The notes beneath the pieces were generated by a model, which made no database searches, was not told the DNA's origin, and saw only the letters and a list, made by a program, of their open reading frames with translations. The translations under genes and the position numbers were made by a program. Below, one piece after another: positions 45,557 through 54,040 of a stretch of 58,190 nucleotides of DNA; position 1 is the first letter of the stretch, and each line of letters begins with the position of its first letter. The DNA lies in NCBI RefSeq assembly GCF_003605575.1, contig NZ_QKNY01000011.1:1-58190 (forward strand), written 5' to 3'. This DNA is from Halonotius aquaticus (lineage in GTDB: Archaea; Halobacteriota; Halobacteria; Halobacteriales; Haloferacaceae).

Positions 45557-46099
45557 TCAAAAGAAACGTGCGAGGAGCCGTGTCACCTGGCCGCCGGTGC
45601 CCAGCCGCCCAGCGTATAGTTGATAAATGGTTGAACCGGAAAACAGCAGGAGACAGGCTGTTGCGGGGATGAGCGGATCGACTGCAGAGAGTAGCGGAAC
45701 TGTTGCTAACGAGCCGACTGTCACAACCAGTCCGACAACGCCGAGTGCCCGATAATACTCCCCCCATGTGACGCCGATACGTGTTGTCACATCCATATAG
45801 CGATTAAGTTGCCCCGCCTGCGAGCAGACACGCACCGTCTTCCGGTTTGGATCATACACCACCAGTCCGAGGCTGTCCAATTTCGGAAGGTGTGTCTGAT
45901 GGAGCGCGTTGTAGACGCTTCCGCGGAGCGCGCGTGGCGCGGGGCGTTCTCCGGACTCTGTGGTTGCGATTCGTTCCGAAAGGTCGCGCAACGACATACT
46001 CTCAGGCTGTTTCCACAGCTCTGTGAGCACCTCGCGCCGGCGCGCGTTACTGAGCACGCTGTACACTTCTACCTCGGGCAGCATGGCCTGATTGAACAT
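45557..46099 (-). CDS. DUF7344-like membrane-anchored regulator of the surface locus
   Basis: A 180-residue protein with VYSVLSNARRREVLTELWKQPESMSLRDLSERIATTESGERPAP, then SVYNALHQTHLPKLDSLGLVVYDPNRKTVRV (winged helix), then two membrane segments at the end (GVVGLVVTVGSLATVPLL, PLIPATACLLLFSG). I prefer ATG 46099 (MFNQAMLPEVEVYS): the alternative ATG at 46141 lies on a TATATC box that fits a promoter for the shorter form. It is divergent from the first SipW-type gene, with the seven-copy motif array between them, so it is the prime candidate to bind that array. Confidence 0.83.
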   Translation of the reverse strand: MFNQAMLPEVEVYSVLSNARRREVLTELWKQPESMSLRDLSERIATTESGERPAPRALRGSVYNALHQTHLPKLDSLGLVVYDPNRKTVRVCSQAGQLNRYMDVTTRIGVTWGEYYRALGVVGLVVTVGSLATVPLLSAVDPLIPATACLLLFSGSTIYQLYAGRLGTGGQVTRLLARFF

Positions 46100-46180
46100 T
46101 GCTCGTCGCAACGCCCGTGAGTGATATAGATATGAATTCACTGCTGTTTGGGTACAGATAGAAGGGTACGGGTACCAAAC

Positions 46181-46316
46181 CGGTATGTCAACTGGATACT
46201 ACTGGTACGGGATCTGTACAAATCGGTATGACCAGTCAACCCAGTCGGTATGGTGGCTGGAGACGACCGGTATGTCCGCCCAACGAGGCGGTATGCGTTC
46301 CGTGCAAACTGGTATG
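46181..46316. promoter_or_regulatory. Seven-copy YGGTAYG array phased at two helical turns
   Basis: Copies start at 46181, 46203, 46224, 46246, 46268, 46289 and 46310, so spacing is 22, 21, 22, 22, 21, 21 bases, close to two turns of DNA. Six units begin CGGTATG or TGGTATG; the unit at 46203 is TGGTACG. The pattern lies on one strand in the same direction and between divergent promoters. It reads as an array for a regulator that binds one DNA face cooperatively. Confidence 0.88.
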
Positions 46317-46490: not shown

Positions 46491-47360
46491 ATGACAGAAG
46501 ACAACAACCCCCAACTGTACAGCCTCTCACGCCGCAAAATGGTAGCCGGTCTCGGTGTTGTCGGCCTCGCGTCTGCGGGTGCCGGCGTCGGTACCTCGGC
46601 GTTTTTCAGCGATGAAGAGAGCTTCGAAAACAACACGCTCACCGCTGGGACGCTCGATATGAGTGTCACCGCCAACGTCGTCGCGGCCGACGACTACTGG
46701 ACCGGGCAAGGCGCCCTTGACCTGAGCGAAACAGCTGACGGCGACGTGGTTTCCGGCATTCAGGTCGACGATGTCAAGCCCGGCGACTGGGCGCTTATCT
46801 GCTTCGATATTGAGGTCGGCGACAACCCCGGCTACGTGCAGGTGCGCACAGAAGAGTTCGTAGAGAACGGTGGTGCCAACCCCGAGCCCGAGCAGGACGT
46901 CGAGGGTGACACCGACAACGATGCCGATCTCGGTGAATTCCTGCTGACGACCGTGTGGCAAAACTATGACGAGACCAGTGGCGACAAGACTGGACTCTCC
47001 ACACTCGATCCCGTATTCAACAATGCCTCTGATGATCTTAACATCAGTTACGGGTCGCCAGATGTTGATGGTGTCGTCGACGGTGTCACTCACTACACAA
47101 ACGCCCGCGAGGCAAACGGAGTGCTTGAGAATGGATACCTAATCAAAGACGACAACGGCGACCTGCTGCCGATTAACGACCAGGCCAACGAGGGCGTCTA
47201 CTCGTTTTGTCTCCTCCTTGAGATCCCGTTCCAGGTCGGCAACGTGATTCAGGGCGACTCGATCTCATTTGATCTCGTCTTCGAGACCGAACAGGTTCGA
47301 CACAACGAGGATCCGTTCAACAACACAGTCCCGGTGAACAACTCAACCGGTGGCCAATAA
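46491..47360 (+). CDS. SipW/TasA-type secreted fibre protein candidate
   Basis: A 289-residue secreted protein. The N-terminus reads LSRRKMVAGLGVVGLASAG then GVGTSAFFSDEESFENNTLTAG, the SipW-dependent signal with a twin-Arg pair, and the cleavage region near TSAFFSDEE fits the family. The mature part is acidic with VKPGDWALICFDIEVGDNPGYVQV, and ends EIPFQVGNVIQGDSISFDLVFETEQ, both repeated in the two vWA genes. These are typical of TasA/camelysin-like fibre subunits, so it is the likely major pilin of the locus. Start at ATG 46491. It is followed by a 193-base structured spacer. Confidence 0.83.
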   Translation: MTEDNNPQLYSLSRRKMVAGLGVVGLASAGAGVGTSAFFSDEESFENNTLTAGTLDMSVTANVVAADDYWTGQGALDLSETADGDVVSGIQVDDVKPGDWALICFDIEVGDNPGYVQVRTEEFVENGGANPEPEQDVEGDTDNDADLGEFLLTTVWQNYDETSGDKTGLSTLDPVFNNASDDLNISYGSPDVDGVVDGVTHYTNAREANGVLENGYLIKDDNGDLLPINDQANEGVYSFCLLLEIPFQVGNVIQGDSISFDLVFETEQVRHNEDPFNNTVPVNNSTGGQ

Positions 47361-47553
47361 GATCGCAGTACAATCACCGAATGGCGGAACTCCCCGGAGC
47401 CTTCCCCGCTGACGCTGACTGGCTCCCCCGCTGTTCAGGCTCTGTTGTCCGGTGGAAATTGCACCGGACAGCCAACCGACTCCCATCCCGCATTGGTATA
47501 CCACGACGGTTCGATTCCGTCGGCGGGATTTCCCCCTATGGGGATGACATATA
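47361..47553 (+). promoter_or_regulatory. Structured spacer between the first two fibre genes
   Basis: 193 bases without a gene. A 9-bp stem TGTCCGGTG/CACCGGACA spans 47446-47470. It is followed by the tRNA-like element at 47485-47529 and by CCCC/GGGG (47533-47543) just before the next start. A stem of GGAGCC with GGCTCC is likely further upstream. The spacer may attenuate or process the message so that the first gene is expressed more. Confidence 0.6.
47485..47529 (+). promoter_or_regulatory. tRNA-like mini-element 1
   Basis: Outer stem ATCCCGC (47485-47491) with GCGGGAT (47523-47529); a D-arm-like TTGGTATACCA (47493-47503); and a T-arm-like stem CGACGG (47504-47509) with CCGTCG (47517-47522) around loop TTCGATT. 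There is no anticodon arm. A tRNA-like motif can be cut by tRNase Z or RNase P, so it could process the message. The second copy at 49283-49325 keeps the layout with different bases in the stems. Confidence 0.6.
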
Positions 47554-49254
47554 ATGAATGAAAAACTCAGACTTTCCCGCCGCAAGGTGCTCGCGGGGAT
47601 CGGTGTCGTTGGACTCGCGTCTGCGGGTGCTGGTGCCGGCACGAGCGCGTTCTTCAGCGATGAAGAGGAGTTCGTCGACAACTCTCTCGTCGCAGGTGAG
47701 CTCGACCTGCTGGTCGACTGGCAACAGACCTATGATTTCGGCGACGGCCAAACCTTCGTCAGTGCCCATCCCGATCACGACAACGACGGCGAACAGTCAA
47801 TCATTGACCCAGAAACTCAGACCGTTCAAAACTACAGTGATTTCCCGGACGACGACGATGCTGACAGCAATGGTGCGAACATCCCCGGGTTGACCTGTGA
47901 GAACATTCCGCCGCTATCGGAGGCTGACTTCGGCGTTGACCCTGTTACCGATGAAAACATGGAAACGCTGGTGCAGTTCTCCGATGTAAAGCCCGGAGAC
48001 AGCGGCGAAATTACGTTTTCGCTTCACCTGTGTGATAATCCTGGCTACCTATGGATGCAGGCTGACAATGTTTCCGAAGACGGCGGTATCCTCACTGAGC
48101 CTGAGACGGCAGTTGATCCCGACAACCTCGGTACGCTTGGGGATGAGATCCAAGCGACGCTGTGGTACGATGAGGACTGCGACAATGTCTACGATATCGA
48201 CGAACCGGTCGATATCATGCTGACATTAGACTTCTCTGGCTCGATGCTGTACGATCAATACGGCGGGCTTGTCAGTACTGACGACATTCAGCTCAATGGG
48301 ACTACATTGTCAGAAACGACAAAGATTGATCTCGTTGAATTGGGGACTCGTCAGTTCGTTGACTACCTCCAATCCCAGAACGCGGATGTGCAAGTTGGGG
48401 TCGCTTACTTTGACGGCGAAGGAACCGACGATAATGTTCCTCGAACTGGGATCCTCCAGCCACTGACGACTGACCTCTCGGTTGTCGACGGGGCGCTCTC
48501 AGGGCTTCGCCAGAAACTTGCAAATGTTGTGACTGGTAGTGCTCCATCGACGCCGTTCGATGGTGACGGTAATCCGAGTCCATTCTTTACGAATGGGATT
48601 GCGACGGGCACCTACATCGGTGAAGGCGTCGACGATGCGCAAGCTGAAATCGATGCTAATGGCCGCAACGGGGTGGATTACACGAATATAATTCTCTCGG
48701 ATGGCGAATCGTTCAACGGAACCGGAAGCACGCAGTTTTCCGATCCAGTCACCGCAGCCGACAACGCCCGTGCTGGATCACTGTCGCCGCCTACAGACGT
48801 CTTCACCATTTCGGTTGGAAGTGCAAACGATAGTATCCTTCAGTCGATGGCTGGTTCGGCCGGTGGAACCGGTGGAGATACATCCTTCTTCAACGATGTT
48901 GACAACCCATTAGACATCCCGAATGTGTTCGGAAATCTCGCGGCTCAAACGGTCGCTGAGAAAGTTATCTTGCAAGATAGTCTTGCCACCGTACTCACCG
49001 AATTGGCGGATGGTAACGGGATCCCGCTTGACGGCAATCGAGCCACGATATACGACGAACTGACTGATCCTGCTGACGACTCCGATCGAGAGGCGTTCCG
49101 CGGCGATGGCGTGATGCACTGTGTTGCGCTCTCGTGGGAGCTCCCCTTCGAGGTCGGCAACGAGATCCAGGGCGACACCCTCGGCTTCGACCTGGGGTTC
49201 TACACCGAGCAGGAGCGGCACAACGACGGCTCCGGGCCGTCGGTGCCGGCCTGA
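47554..49254 (+). CDS. SipW-type secreted protein with von Willebrand A domain
   Basis: A 566-residue secreted protein. It opens LSRRKVLAGIGVVGLASAG then GAGTSAFFSDEEEFVDNSLVAG, the SipW-type signal. A fibre-subunit module follows, then a vWA domain from about residue 220 with MIDAS start DFSGSM at 226-231 and LSDGESFNG later, suited to metal-dependent adhesion. The fibre core resumes after it, ending ELPFEVGNEIQGDTLGFDLGFYTEQ, like the first gene. The vWA appears inserted into the fibre subunit near DEDCDNVYDIDEP. Adhesin or tip function is inferred. It is the second gene of the locus. Confidence 0.85.
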   Translation: MNEKLRLSRRKVLAGIGVVGLASAGAGAGTSAFFSDEEEFVDNSLVAGELDLLVDWQQTYDFGDGQTFVSAHPDHDNDGEQSIIDPETQTVQNYSDFPDDDDADSNGANIPGLTCENIPPLSEADFGVDPVTDENMETLVQFSDVKPGDSGEITFSLHLCDNPGYLWMQADNVSEDGGILTEPETAVDPDNLGTLGDEIQATLWYDEDCDNVYDIDEPVDIMLTLDFSGSMLYDQYGGLVSTDDIQLNGTTLSETTKIDLVELGTRQFVDYLQSQNADVQVGVAYFDGEGTDDNVPRTGILQPLTTDLSVVDGALSGLRQKLANVVTGSAPSTPFDGDGNPSPFFTNGIATGTYIGEGVDDAQAEIDANGRNGVDYTNIILSDGESFNGTGSTQFSDPVTAADNARAGSLSPPTDVFTISVGSANDSILQSMAGSAGGTGGDTSFFNDVDNPLDIPNVFGNLAAQTVAEKVILQDSLATVLTELADGNGIPLDGNRATIYDELTDPADDSDREAFRGDGVMHCVALSWELPFEVGNEIQGDTLGFDLGFYTEQERHNDGSGPSVPA

Positions 49255-49282: not shown

Positions 49283-49325
49283 GACCCACACTGGTCTCAC
49301 GGGGGTTCGACTCCTCCGGTGGGTT
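49283..49325 (+). promoter_or_regulatory. tRNA-like mini-element 2
   Basis: GACCCAC (49283-49289) pairs with GTGGGTT (49319-49325), with one G-U. CGGGGG (49300-49305) and CCTCCG (49313-49318) form a T-arm-like stem with loop TTCGACT and one G-U pair. A TGGT-containing D-like piece lies between. It has the same order as element 1 but other stem bases, so it shows covariation. Confidence 0.6.
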
Positions 49326-49419: not shown

Positions 49420-50895
49420 ATGACAGAACATAACGACCCCAAACTGAACAGCCTCTCTCGACGCAGCATCCTCGGGGGTATCGGCGCAGTCGGTATCGCT
49501 TCCGCTGGTGCTGGGCTTGGCACGAGCGCGTTTTTCTCCGACGAGGAGGAATTCATGAACAATAGTCTCCAAGCTGGCACCCTTGACCTGAAGCTTGACT
49601 ACAAAGCAACGTACCTCGGCGGCCAAGGCCGACTTGCTTCTGTTGAGGCTATGGGCTACCCGAACGTCGAAGAGATCACCGACGACGGCGAGCCGACCGG
49701 CCGGTACCTCCTTGCACAAGCACCATCGCCAGCGGATATGCAGGAATGGGAAGATCTTGTCCAGGGCGAAGCATTCGATTTCTGCAGCCCTGCAGCCGAC
49801 GAGTTCCTCGTCAACGGCGACGGGATCCCGATGTTCACACTTGATGACGTTAAGCCAGGTGACTCCGGCGAGGTGACTGTGAGCATCCATATCTGCGATA
49901 ATCCTGGCTACCTTCGGATGATGGGCGACATCACCGGCAACGCCGAGAACGGCCAGACCGAACCCGAGATCAACGCCGAAGGTGAGGACACCGACGGCAT
50001 CGGCGAACTCGCCGACGCGATCGAGGTCTGCGTCTGGTACGACGAGGACTGTGACAACGTCTTCGAGCCGACCGGCACCGGACAACAACAAGAACTAGAA
50101 GTCGCTCTCGTCTCCGACGTTTCCGGATCGATGAGTGGCTCTGCACTCACATCGCTACAATCCGCTGCGACCAGCTTTGTTGACAACCTCGCCTCGCCTG
50201 ACGAGGCCGCGGCGATCTCGTTCAGTACGAGTGCCACCACCGATCAAGAGCTGACGACAGTCTACCAAGATGTCAAAGATGCGATCAACGGCTACACCGC
50301 GGGCGGCGGCACCTCGATCGCCTCCGGTATCGATGAAGGAGCTGACGAACTTCTTAATGGTACCAACGCCACAGTGGGCGCATCAAAAGTGATGCTTTTA
50401 TTGAGTGATGGTAATTCCAGTGCCTCGGCGGCAACGACCGCTGCCAACGCCGCGAAGAACGCCGGCATTCGGCTGTTCACTATCGCCCTCGGTAGTGCCA
50501 ACACAGCACTGTTGGAATCACTTGCGAGTTCACCAGACGACGCGTTCGTCGCCCCAGATCCAGCTGATCTTGACACCGTTTACGCGGAGATCGCTCAAAT
50601 CGTTCTTGGTGGCGAACAGAAGATCGCGGAGGGGACGATGGCCGAAGTGTTTGCCCAACTTTCGGAGGGCGTGATCCTCGATGGGGATCGGCAGGAAGAA
50701 GGCCTTCAGCCATACCCTGGCGCAACTACCCAGTGTATCGGCTTCGAATGGACGTTACCGTTCGATGTTGGTAATGAAGTCCAGACTGATTCAGTCGGCT
50801 TCGACTTTGGGTTCGAGGTTGAGCAGTCACGGCACAACGAGACGCCGTTCGCCGCTAACAACACGGCCCCGAACGGCACAACGTCCGGAAACTAA
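49420..50895 (+). CDS. SipW-type secreted protein with von Willebrand A domain, second copy
   Basis: A 491-residue secreted protein. LSRRSILGGIGAVGIASAG then GLGTSAFFSDEEEFMNNSLQAG is the signal. The first half is a fibre-like module (GDSGEVTVSIHICDNPGYLRMMGD). The vWA domain starts near residue 230 at VSDVSGSMSGS (MIDAS) and has LLSDGNSSAS. The C-terminal FEWTLPFDVGNEVQTDSVGFDFGFEVEQ repeats the family end. It is a paralogue of the previous gene with a shorter vWA. The two probably form adhesive units on the same fibre. Confidence 0.85.
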   Translation: MTEHNDPKLNSLSRRSILGGIGAVGIASAGAGLGTSAFFSDEEEFMNNSLQAGTLDLKLDYKATYLGGQGRLASVEAMGYPNVEEITDDGEPTGRYLLAQAPSPADMQEWEDLVQGEAFDFCSPAADEFLVNGDGIPMFTLDDVKPGDSGEVTVSIHICDNPGYLRMMGDITGNAENGQTEPEINAEGEDTDGIGELADAIEVCVWYDEDCDNVFEPTGTGQQQELEVALVSDVSGSMSGSALTSLQSAATSFVDNLASPDEAAAISFSTSATTDQELTTVYQDVKDAINGYTAGGGTSIASGIDEGADELLNGTNATVGASKVMLLLSDGNSSASAATTAANAAKNAGIRLFTIALGSANTALLESLASSPDDAFVAPDPADLDTVYAEIAQIVLGGEQKIAEGTMAEVFAQLSEGVILDGDRQEEGLQPYPGATTQCIGFEWTLPFDVGNEVQTDSVGFDFGFEVEQSRHNETPFAANNTAPNGTTSGN

Positions 50896-51906: not shown

Positions 51907-53081
51907 CCTTGACTCGACGCCGGATCCTGGCGGCGGTAGCCGCCACGGGTGGGGCCGGCGCGCTGATGGGAACTGGTACCGCTGCAATGCTCCGAGATAC
52001 AGAGCGGTATGACGCCTCAATCACGGCCGGCACAGTCGACCTGCGTGCGGAGTATGAACTGCTGACCGGCCCGGGTGCTGGCGAGCCTGACGGACAGGGG
52101 ATAATCGATGGCCCACGTGTGAGGCTGCCAATCGGGTCGCTCAGCCCAACTGCTGCCTCCGGGAGCATGCGTCTCACGTTCGCGTTGCCGCAACGCGGCG
52201 ATGCGGTCAACAACCCGGCGGCGTTGTGGCTTGCGACAGACTGCCCGGTTCCACAATCGACTGCAGTAGCGGAGTCGATTCACGTTGTGGTGTCGTACGC
52301 TGACTGTCACTCCGGAAGCCGCCTCCAGCGAGTCACTGCTGGATCACTGCGTGAGGTTGCTGAGGATCTCCGCGGGGGATTCCGGGTCGACGGTGATCCG
52401 TCGACGGCAGGCGACGACTGCTTGGTCGACACTGTCTGTCTACTCATCGAGTACGAACTCGACGGCTATATCGGAACTGAGACGGTTGCATTACCGCTGT
52501 GGTTTGCAGCCCTCCAGTGCCGAAACGCATCCCCGCAGAATCCCTTCGCAGGGGTGGATTCAGATCCATGTCCTACCGCTGACCCATGCCCATGCTGCAA
52601 CACGCTTGGGAAACTTGAGTTTGAAGACGATACGCAGTCGGGACTAAGCGAGAGTTTCGCCACCCCCGGAGTATACGCTTTCAATAACGGCGATCCAGAC
52701 TACGGGTTGGAGATCTACGACACCACAGACAAGGATGGCGGTAGCGAAACGGTCGGGATTGCGTTCCGGCTTGTGAGCTTTACCGGTGGAAACGCCCCGC
52801 CGATTTGCACGGTCGCGGTCAAAGGTGGTCGCGGATACGAGCAGTATGACCGCACCGATGGCCTCTCGGCGGACACACTGTCTCTCCCCGGCAGCGACAC
52901 CAACGGTATCGTGTACGCACCAGAGGGAACCGCGATTAGCCACGTCACAGTCTGTGTCTGTACGGCCGATTCGAAGGCAGACTGCGAGGGGTGTACTGAT
53001 CCCTCACATTCGAATACTGTCGTCAGCGGTTGGAACGGGAACGGCAATGGTGCGCCCGGAGCCGCCCGAGGTGACCGATGA
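51903..53081 (+). CDS. SipW-like secreted protein with Cys-rich C-terminal domain
   Basis: A 392-residue protein. The start MTLTRRRILAAVAATGGAGAL then TGTAAMLRDTERYDASITAGTVDLR is SipW-like with an RRR pair and a weak form of the motif (MLRDTE). A fibre-like domain follows to about residue 215. Then PCPTADPCPCCNTLG opens a second domain with a beta-rich core and a further CVCTADSKADCEGC near the end, so it may hold disulfides. The start ATG 51903 overlaps the previous stop and its own stop overlaps the signal peptidase start, so it is translationally coupled on both sides. Confidence 0.78.
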   Translation: MTLTRRRILAAVAATGGAGALMGTGTAAMLRDTERYDASITAGTVDLRAEYELLTGPGAGEPDGQGIIDGPRVRLPIGSLSPTAASGSMRLTFALPQRGDAVNNPAALWLATDCPVPQSTAVAESIHVVVSYADCHSGSRLQRVTAGSLREVAEDLRGGFRVDGDPSTAGDDCLVDTVCLLIEYELDGYIGTETVALPLWFAALQCRNASPQNPFAGVDSDPCPTADPCPCCNTLGKLEFEDDTQSGLSESFATPGVYAFNNGDPDYGLEIYDTTDKDGGSETVGIAFRLVSFTGGNAPPICTVAVKGGRGYEQYDRTDGLSADTLSLPGSDTNGIVYAPEGTAISHVTVCVCTADSKADCEGCTDPSHSNTVVSGWNGNGNGAPGAARGDR

Positions 53082-54040
53082 TCCCGCTCTCGCGGTCATC
53101 GTTGCCGAGAGCGCGGAGCCTTGTAGTGACGCTCGTGCTGATCGCGGCTGTCTCGCCGTTTGTAGTGTTTGCCCTCCCCGAGGTGGTCGGGGCCGACGAG
53201 AGCTACGTCGTCCTGTCAGGGAGTATGGAGCCAACACTTTCGCCCGGTGATGTGGTGATCGTCGATGCAACTGCCACCGTGGGTATCGGTGACATCATCA
53301 CGTATGATACCGGCGACCAAGTGCCGACAACACACCGTGTGATCGACGAACGGGACGGTGGCTACCAGACCAAAGGTGATGCCAATGAGAATGTTGATTC
53401 GGGGCTCGTCGCCTTTGAATCCGTTATCGGACGCACCATCATTACGATCCCGTTTGTCGGATATGTGATCCTGTGGGCGAATTCGCCTGTCGGCTACGTC
53501 CTGCTTGTGGTGATTCCGCTGGTGCTACTCGGGGTGAGTGAACTACACAAGTGGGCTCGCCAGGATCCCACCACCGCATCAGACACAGCCCACCAGTCAG
53601 TATCGGCCGGCAATCCAACAGAGAGCGATGGGGATCGTGAGTGGCAGACCACAGATGAAGTGGAGAATGCGGTTGATATCGATCCTGAAACACAGTCTAC
53701 TCCCACCAGTAGCCAAGCCACTGAGAGCTCGGACTTCGATAACCCGTCCTCATCCGACACCGGGCAACTCGCAATCGTGGATCTGAAACTCACACTACTT
53801 GCGATGACAGTCTTGCTCGTATATGCGGGCTGGAACATCTACCGTGAGGTCACTACCGCCGCCGCACCGACCCCACTCTCGGTCGGTGTCTTCACTGCGG
53901 GGCTTCTTGGGCTCCTGTTTACGGGGGCGATGACCATCTCGGCATGGCAAGCGAATAACCCCGACGAGCCACGTTTGCCACCGGCCCTCCCGCTGCCTGA
54001 CGGTGGCGAGGGTGAGATGTCGGAGGGAAGCGATGAGTAA
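53078..54040 (+). CDS. Signal peptidase I (SipW/archaeal type)
   Basis: A 320-residue membrane peptidase. The N-terminal membrane segment VVTLVLIAAVSPFVVFAL is followed by the catalytic SGSMEPTL (Ser49), THRVID (His86) and TKGDANENVD (Asp101 and Asp107). This Ser-His-Asp pattern is that of archaeal and SipW-type peptidases rather than the bacterial Ser-Lys type. Beyond the core it has a second membrane segment, a long Ser/Thr-rich acidic linker (residues 160-230) and further membrane segments near the C-terminus, which is unusual. It is embedded in the fibre operon, so it very likely cleaves the SipW-type signals of its neighbours. Confidence 0.9.
   Translation: MIPLSRSSLPRARSLVVTLVLIAAVSPFVVFALPEVVGADESYVVLSGSMEPTLSPGDVVIVDATATVGIGDIITYDTGDQVPTTHRVIDERDGGYQTKGDANENVDSGLVAFESVIGRTIITIPFVGYVILWANSPVGYVLLVVIPLVLLGVSELHKWARQDPTTASDTAHQSVSAGNPTESDGDREWQTTDEVENAVDIDPETQSTPTSSQATESSDFDNPSSSDTGQLAIVDLKLTLLAMTVLLVYAGWNIYREVTTAAAPTPLSVGVFTAGLLGLLFTGAMTISAWQANNPDEPRLPPALPLPDGGEGEMSEGSDE

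Follow-up and report, generated by a model that had tools for sequence, protein, structure and literature searches.

The fibre operon of Halonotius aquaticus raises the question of what an element shaped like part of a tRNA is doing between two protein-coding genes, and whether the enzymes that trim the ends of tRNAs could act on the operon message at this site. The window, which here means the whole stretch of DNA that was analysed, is 58,190 nt long and comprises positions 1 to 58,190 (forward strand) of contig NZ_QKNY01000011.1, from a genome of 2.47 Mb. The genes of the operon follow each other on the + strand in the order fibre genes 1, 2 and 3, two further ORFs and a gene for signal peptidase I.

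Two tRNA-like elements within a fibre operon

The features of the operon are listed below, where R1 denotes a covariance model built from the fibre elements and R2 a covariance model built from 13 elements of 5S rRNA loci only.

46491–47360, +: fibre gene 1, camelysin/TasA-like, SipW-type signal (PF12389, E 1.1e-6); no element upstream
47444–47472, +: 11-bp hairpin in the 3' spacer of gene 1, upstream of t-element 1 (fold, z -2.95)
47485–47529, +: t-element 1 (sequence and fold; R1 41.3 bits; R2 E 1.2e-5 genome-wide)
47485–47491 and 47523–47529, +: acceptor-like strands of t-element 1
47492–47503, +: insert of t-element 1, containing TTGGT
47504–47509 and 47517–47522, +: T-stem of t-element 1, with the T-loop TTCGATT at 47510–47516
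47529/47530, +: predicted tRNase Z cut (by analogy with the start of 5S rRNA in relatives)
47531–47544, +: companion hairpin TCCCC-CTAT-GGGGA, immediately 3' of t-element 1 (fold)
47554–49254, +: fibre gene 2, 566 aa, SipW-type signal (PF12389, E 2.3e-4, slightly under the curated cut-off)
49283–49325, +: t-element 2, between genes 2 and 3, 94 nt upstream of the ATG (R1 56.7 bits; R2 E 7.9e-7)
49420–50895, +: fibre gene 3, 491 aa, SipW-type signal and VWA domain (PF00092, E 2e-23)
53078–54040, +: signal peptidase I of the operon (PF10502, E 5.1e-4, under the curated cut-off)

The N-termini of the fibre proteins carry Tat-like SRR motifs together with the SipW-type sequence ...TSAFFSDEE. Natronorubrum bangense has an operon with this layout, the annotation of which gives three proteins as 'SipW-dependent-type signal peptide-containing', followed by two hypothetical proteins and then a signal peptidase I; the last of these occupies the position equivalent to that of the H. 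aquaticus gene. In this operon of N. bangense, a t-element is found upstream of the third fibre gene.

The sequence of t-element 1 is ATCCCGC-ATTGGTATACCA-CGACGG-TTCGATT-CCGTCG-GCGGGAT and that of t-element 2 is GACCCAC-ACTGGTCTCA-CGGGGG-TTCGACT-CCTCCG-GTGGGTT. In the preliminary description, the first of these was depicted as a 7-bp outer stem and a T-arm with the loop TTCGATT, with a D-arm-like piece containing TGGT and no anticodon arm, and this structure is confirmed by both the sequence and its fold. When folded alone, t-element 1 has an MFE of -21.2 kcal/mol (z -3.35), and none of 200 dinucleotide shuffles was equally stable. Its outer stem (7 bp) and T-stem (6 bp) together provide 13 bp; in relatives the core consists of 12 bp, the 13th pair being optional, and this conserved 12-bp core matches the length of the acceptor/T stack of tRNAs. 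For t-element 2 folded alone, the MFE favours a different structure, although its R1 score exceeds that of t-element 1. The T-loops of both elements (TTCGATT and TTCGACT) are 7 nt long and contain TTCRA, as expected of a haloarchaeal t-element.

A strict descriptor of an acceptor stem plus T-arm identifies 2 sites in the window, whereas 100 dinucleotide-shuffled versions contain 0.07 on average (max 2), and the two window sites are also the only matches of R1 in the entire genome. The pattern GGTTCGANTCC occurs at 20 genomic sites, two of which are the window elements, with no site for the reversed-pattern control. No family in Rfam matched the window at gathering score and no tRNA gene was found in it by ARAGORN; the two elements, with inserts of 10–12 nt, do not form a full cloverleaf with an anticodon arm. 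Their interpretation as a tRNA gene or its remnant was rejected, as there is no tRNA in the window and the genomic matches of R1 and R2 with low E values are the two fibre sites and not tRNAs.

A family of elements with covarying stems

Homologues of gene 2 are present in 27 of the 60 related genomes; the fibre ORFs at these loci are preceded by the same module of acceptor stem and T-arm, with stem sequences that differ. The consensus of 47 such elements is nACCCAC-n7-68 (with GG)-CGGCGG TTCGACT CCGCCG-GTGGGTn. Covariation in related species, which the preliminary description had named as a check, is seen in these stems: 93.3% of the cells are paired and two-sided compensatory changes occur in 9 of the 13 base pairs. 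The compensatory cells number 58 versus 13.6 in shuffles (0 of 500 reaching this value) and at most 12 with the partners slid, although the outer-stem counts are inflated by the choice of the outer 5' strand for best pairing within 80 nt. When this choice is controlled for, the outer stems are marginal singly but far beyond chance in aggregate (Fisher p 1e-14). The positions of the T-stem were not searched over, with at most 1 mismatch permitted, and the invariance of the T-loop in alignment A1 is partly by construction, because the loop belonged to the search descriptor. Where a tRNA would have its D and anticodon arms, a D-loop-like GG lies among the initial 7 nt of the insert in 43 of 47 elements (23.5 in shuffles), and it is found in the same place in the 5S elements. 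For hairpins inside the long inserts, the count above threshold says little (18 versus 14.5), and the mean score is 16.8 versus 12.9 in shuffles (sd 0.9). The sequence CCA, an antideterminant of tRNase Z, directly follows the acceptor strand in none of 154 elements. A chance hairpin is ruled out by the shuffles and the covariation.

The expectation that the spacers of relatives would keep these stems holds only in part. The sister species (G001) retains both elements, whereas the gene 1–gene 2 spacers of three more distant relatives (viz. G017, G005 and G032, with 73–75% protein identity) lack an element. Two of these three species do have elements elsewhere, both at different junctions and in different fibre operons, and some of these are weaker. 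Due to the empty orthologous spacers in these three species, the element cannot be a fixed property of the gene 1–gene 2 pair in all relatives, and it follows that the module has been gained and lost.

In larger samples of genomes, R1 matched 81 of 170 genomes of the family at E<=0.01, some of these matches being 5S elements, and 77 of 392 genomes of the order, from seven families, at E<=0.001. Among the 295 genomes of a phylum sample 9 have a match, all within the order of the host, with none at E<=0.001 in the sampled genomes from outside this order. In loci fetched by model matches without any protein query, most elements were again located directly upstream of ORFs for secreted proteins. 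A search of 257 Gb of genomes for the exact 24-base core gave 94 matching stretches, of which 93 are haloarchaeal and represent about 20 genera. The ORF downstream of 120 core elements was clearly of the SipW-type fibre kind in 69 cases and of the GAFTSV/DUF1102 type in 12; for the remainder, it was another Tat-signal ORF in 15 cases (several also fibre-like) and some other ORF in 17, with none in 7. When 103 downstream proteins were scanned, 57 contained PF12389, 11 contained DUF1102 and one was a signal peptidase. This order-wide family and the companion hairpin described below go beyond the preliminary description. The idea that the element is part of a virus or mobile element was rejected, since the exact core is not found in viral contigs and most matches belong to operons for surface proteins, carried by chromosomes or large plasmids.

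Some further occurrences deserve mention. A second family of exported proteins, DUF1102/GAFTSV, likewise has the module upstream of its genes in loci L093, L106, L108, L127, L163, L191, L246 and others. Model matches also precede short non-fibre ORFs, possibly genes of mobile elements, in L144 (1507–1549 and 2712–2752), L141 (1518–1560) and L130 (4032–4073). One exact match to the core, without an ORF behind it, lies in a contig of a Spirochaetes MAG (L255, 3128–3151), and it is perhaps a real tRNA or contamination.

The 5S rRNA signal and the proposed splitting of the message

The core matches of any one fibre locus all share a strand, which is that of the operon, and an element is found upstream of 42 of 55 internal fibre genes, compared to 7 of 63 first genes (Fisher p 2e-13). 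The distance from the end of the element to the ATG is 16–34 nt in 40 of 47 cases, typically about 20–24 nt, with some elements being 47–94 nt away; the distance from the upstream stop is variable. The element is commonly followed by a companion hairpin, typically of the form TCCCC-nnnn-GGGGA, with other stem pairs being CCTGC/GCAGG, TTCCC/GGGAA and CTCCGG/CCGGAG. It was found after 112 of 151 elements, compared to 36 (max 48) in shuffles, and in 101 of these 112 it starts 0–1 nt past the element. Of the genes that have an element nearby, 37 of 43 also have the hairpin, compared to 0 of 9 internal genes that lack an element; it is also seen at 19 of 45 first genes without an element, not all of which are genuine fibre genes.

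As the H. aquaticus assembly yielded no 5S gene, the 5S loci of relatives were used for comparison. The sequence preceding 5S rRNA in these species has the same architecture (12–13 bp, an NNTGGT insert and a TTCGATT loop), and the 5S rRNA begins immediately 3' of nucleotide 13 of the element preceding it. The two models recognise each other's elements: R1, derived from fibre elements, detects many 5S elements, while R2, derived from 5S elements, detects most of the fibre elements of relatives, and in the whole genome of H. aquaticus its best matches are the two window elements, the next match having an E of 9.4. The fibre-operon element closely matches the haloarchaeal t-element of the 5S rRNA type. 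In Haloferax volcanii, the 5S t-element is a substrate of tRNase Z (PMC4326828), and in vivo both RNase P and tRNase Z cleaved t-elements that flanked a crRNA (PMC4326828; PMC4946936). The statement in the preliminary description that tRNase Z cuts tRNA-like motifs before 5S rRNA in haloarchaea is thus borne out for Haloferax (PMC4326828). The genome of H. aquaticus contains a gene for tRNase Z (TIGR02651, above the cut-off).

The likeness to the trimming signal of 5S rRNA, together with the recurrence at internal fibre genes, suggests that the tRNA-trimming enzymes probably split the long message. According to this interpretation, to which we assign a probability of about 0.7, the t-element within the polycistronic camelysin/TasA-like mRNA would fold as the top half of a tRNA, tRNase Z would cut directly 3' of the acceptor strand (after 47529), and RNase P would probably cut 5' of the first acceptor strand (before 47485). 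If both cuts occurred, then every internal fibre gene would be released as a separate mRNA, starting with a short hairpin 20–24 nt upstream of its ATG, with the end of the upstream mRNA lying close to a 3' hairpin of that mRNA. The companion hairpin lies at what would be the new 5' end left by tRNase Z and may guard it, although a hairpin starting 1–2 nt past the cut might hinder this enzyme. The 11-bp hairpin upstream of t-element 1 is predicted in the sister species also, and from its modelled fold it is possible that it protects the 3' end of the gene 1 mRNA. Due to the hairpins at the new 5' and 3' ends, the mRNA pieces could differ in stability and translation, and one operon could in this way yield unequal amounts of fibre subunits. 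Against the splitting of the message stand the alternative fold of t-element 2 and its distance of 94 nt from the ATG, as well as the empty gene 1–gene 2 spacers of the three relatives. For the broader proposal that haloarchaea possess dedicated operon-splitting, in which tRNA-end enzymes acting at t-element plus hairpin modules produce single-gene fibre mRNAs whose 5' ends are protected by the hairpin, and in this way set the subunit ratios, we regard the chances as evenly balanced.

The tight spacing between element and ATG can also be read differently. If the structure were left uncut, it could bind a tRNA-handling protein or the ribosome, with the companion hairpin controlling the translation start of the next gene; the G-rich 3' strand of this hairpin is only a few nucleotides from the ATG and its GGGGA resembles a weak Shine-Dalgarno site. 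However, the close twin of the element before 5S rRNA is a cutting signal without a nearby start codon, so that translation alone leaves the likeness unexplained, and in some cases the element lies 47–94 nt from the ATG; we consider this alternative unlikely. Slightly less probable still is the possibility that the chief function of the element is to create or protect a 3' end for the upstream message, either by an RNase P cut or as a MALAT1-like, tRNA-like 3' cap, with the downstream gene being little affected. The finding that Haloferax t-elements are RNase P substrates (PMC4326828) and the 11-bp hairpin located 5' of t-element 1 are in accordance with such a role, but conservation is seen in the spacing to the downstream ATG and in the hairpin on that side, whereas the distance from the upstream stop varies. 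A feature at the DNA level may also be considered, since the elements occur with paralogous genes, their presence differs between species through gain and loss, and archaeal integrases frequently act at tRNA ends. The elements could then mark junctions left by recombination or duplication, or be remnants of tRNA genes or of integrated elements, and in either case they would have spread along with the duplicated fibre genes; however, the compensatory changes in both stems indicate selection on RNA and disfavour this very improbable reading, as do the preserved ATG spacing and hairpin, the absence of an ARAGORN tRNA from the window and that of the exact core from viral contigs.

Known systems and other features of the fibre loci

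In animals, a tRNA-like fold in the long MALAT1 transcript, which gives rise to mascRNA, recruits RNase P and tRNase Z. However, MALAT1 is a eukaryotic non-coding RNA, whereas the fibre element belongs to an archaeal polycistronic mRNA, is repeated between genes, and its cutting is predicted. In mitochondrial transcripts, tRNAs serve as separators that mark the cuts between genes; the fibre elements are likewise tRNA-shaped separators, but those of mitochondria are functional tRNAs and the fibre elements lack an anticodon arm. A close counterpart is the haloarchaeal 5S t-element (Hoelzle et al. 2008, 2012, as cited in PMC4326828), with which the fibre element shares an acceptor-like stem and T-arm, a GG-bearing insert, a TTCRANT loop, the lack of an anticodon arm, recognition by the same covariance models and the start of the next RNA right after the 3' strand (for the fibre element, a predicted start). 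It differs from the 5S t-element in that it separates protein-coding genes, mostly has a companion hairpin and is followed by an ATG about 20–24 nt downstream; in addition, its stems are mostly ACCCAC/GTGGGT and its inserts reach up to 68 nt. The t-element was already known before 5S rRNA. No report of t-elements between protein-coding genes was found in the literature searched; this should be understood as 'not found' and not as 'absent', because Hoelzle et al. 2012 may list genome-wide predictions. Among the studies of haloarchaeal transcript processing and 3' ends that were examined, tRNase Z and tRNA-like motifs are not mentioned, and in one study of processing sites the searches for a motif unifying the internal sites were unfruitful (PMC8303175).

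The cutting of mRNAs in archaea is poorly known, and the fibre element offers a well-defined signal with covarying stems, a candidate enzyme that can be named, a cut predicted at the nucleotide level and dozens of carrier species, among which Halorubrum saccharovorum DSM 1137, Halobaculum gomorrense and N. bangense can be cultured. If the proposed splitting is correct, then it would explain how unequal amounts of the subunits of a multi-subunit surface fibre could be obtained from a single operon, and it would represent a conserved use of tRNase Z and RNase P for protein-coding messages in archaea.

Operons for TasA/camelysin fibres with a SipW signal peptidase are known from Bacillus, and archaeal bundling pili have also been described (cited in PMC9715654). 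The haloarchaeal operons likewise have a linked signal peptidase I along with secreted subunits whose signals are of the SipW type (PF12389), but their subunits carry Tat-like SRR signals and in some cases VWA domains, and t-elements are present between the genes.

The fibre operon of H. aquaticus is adjoined by a divergent DUF7344 gene (45557–46141). Between the two, at 46182–46316, there are seven copies of GGTAYG at distances of 21–22 bp (two helical turns), an array which is conserved in the sister species; these copies look like an operator array of the fibre operon, bound perhaps by the DUF7344 protein. ORFs with wing motifs similar in appearance to that of DUF7344 (e.g. ...VAAWEND) are also seen in the fibre-locus regions of several relatives (L037, L058 and L067).
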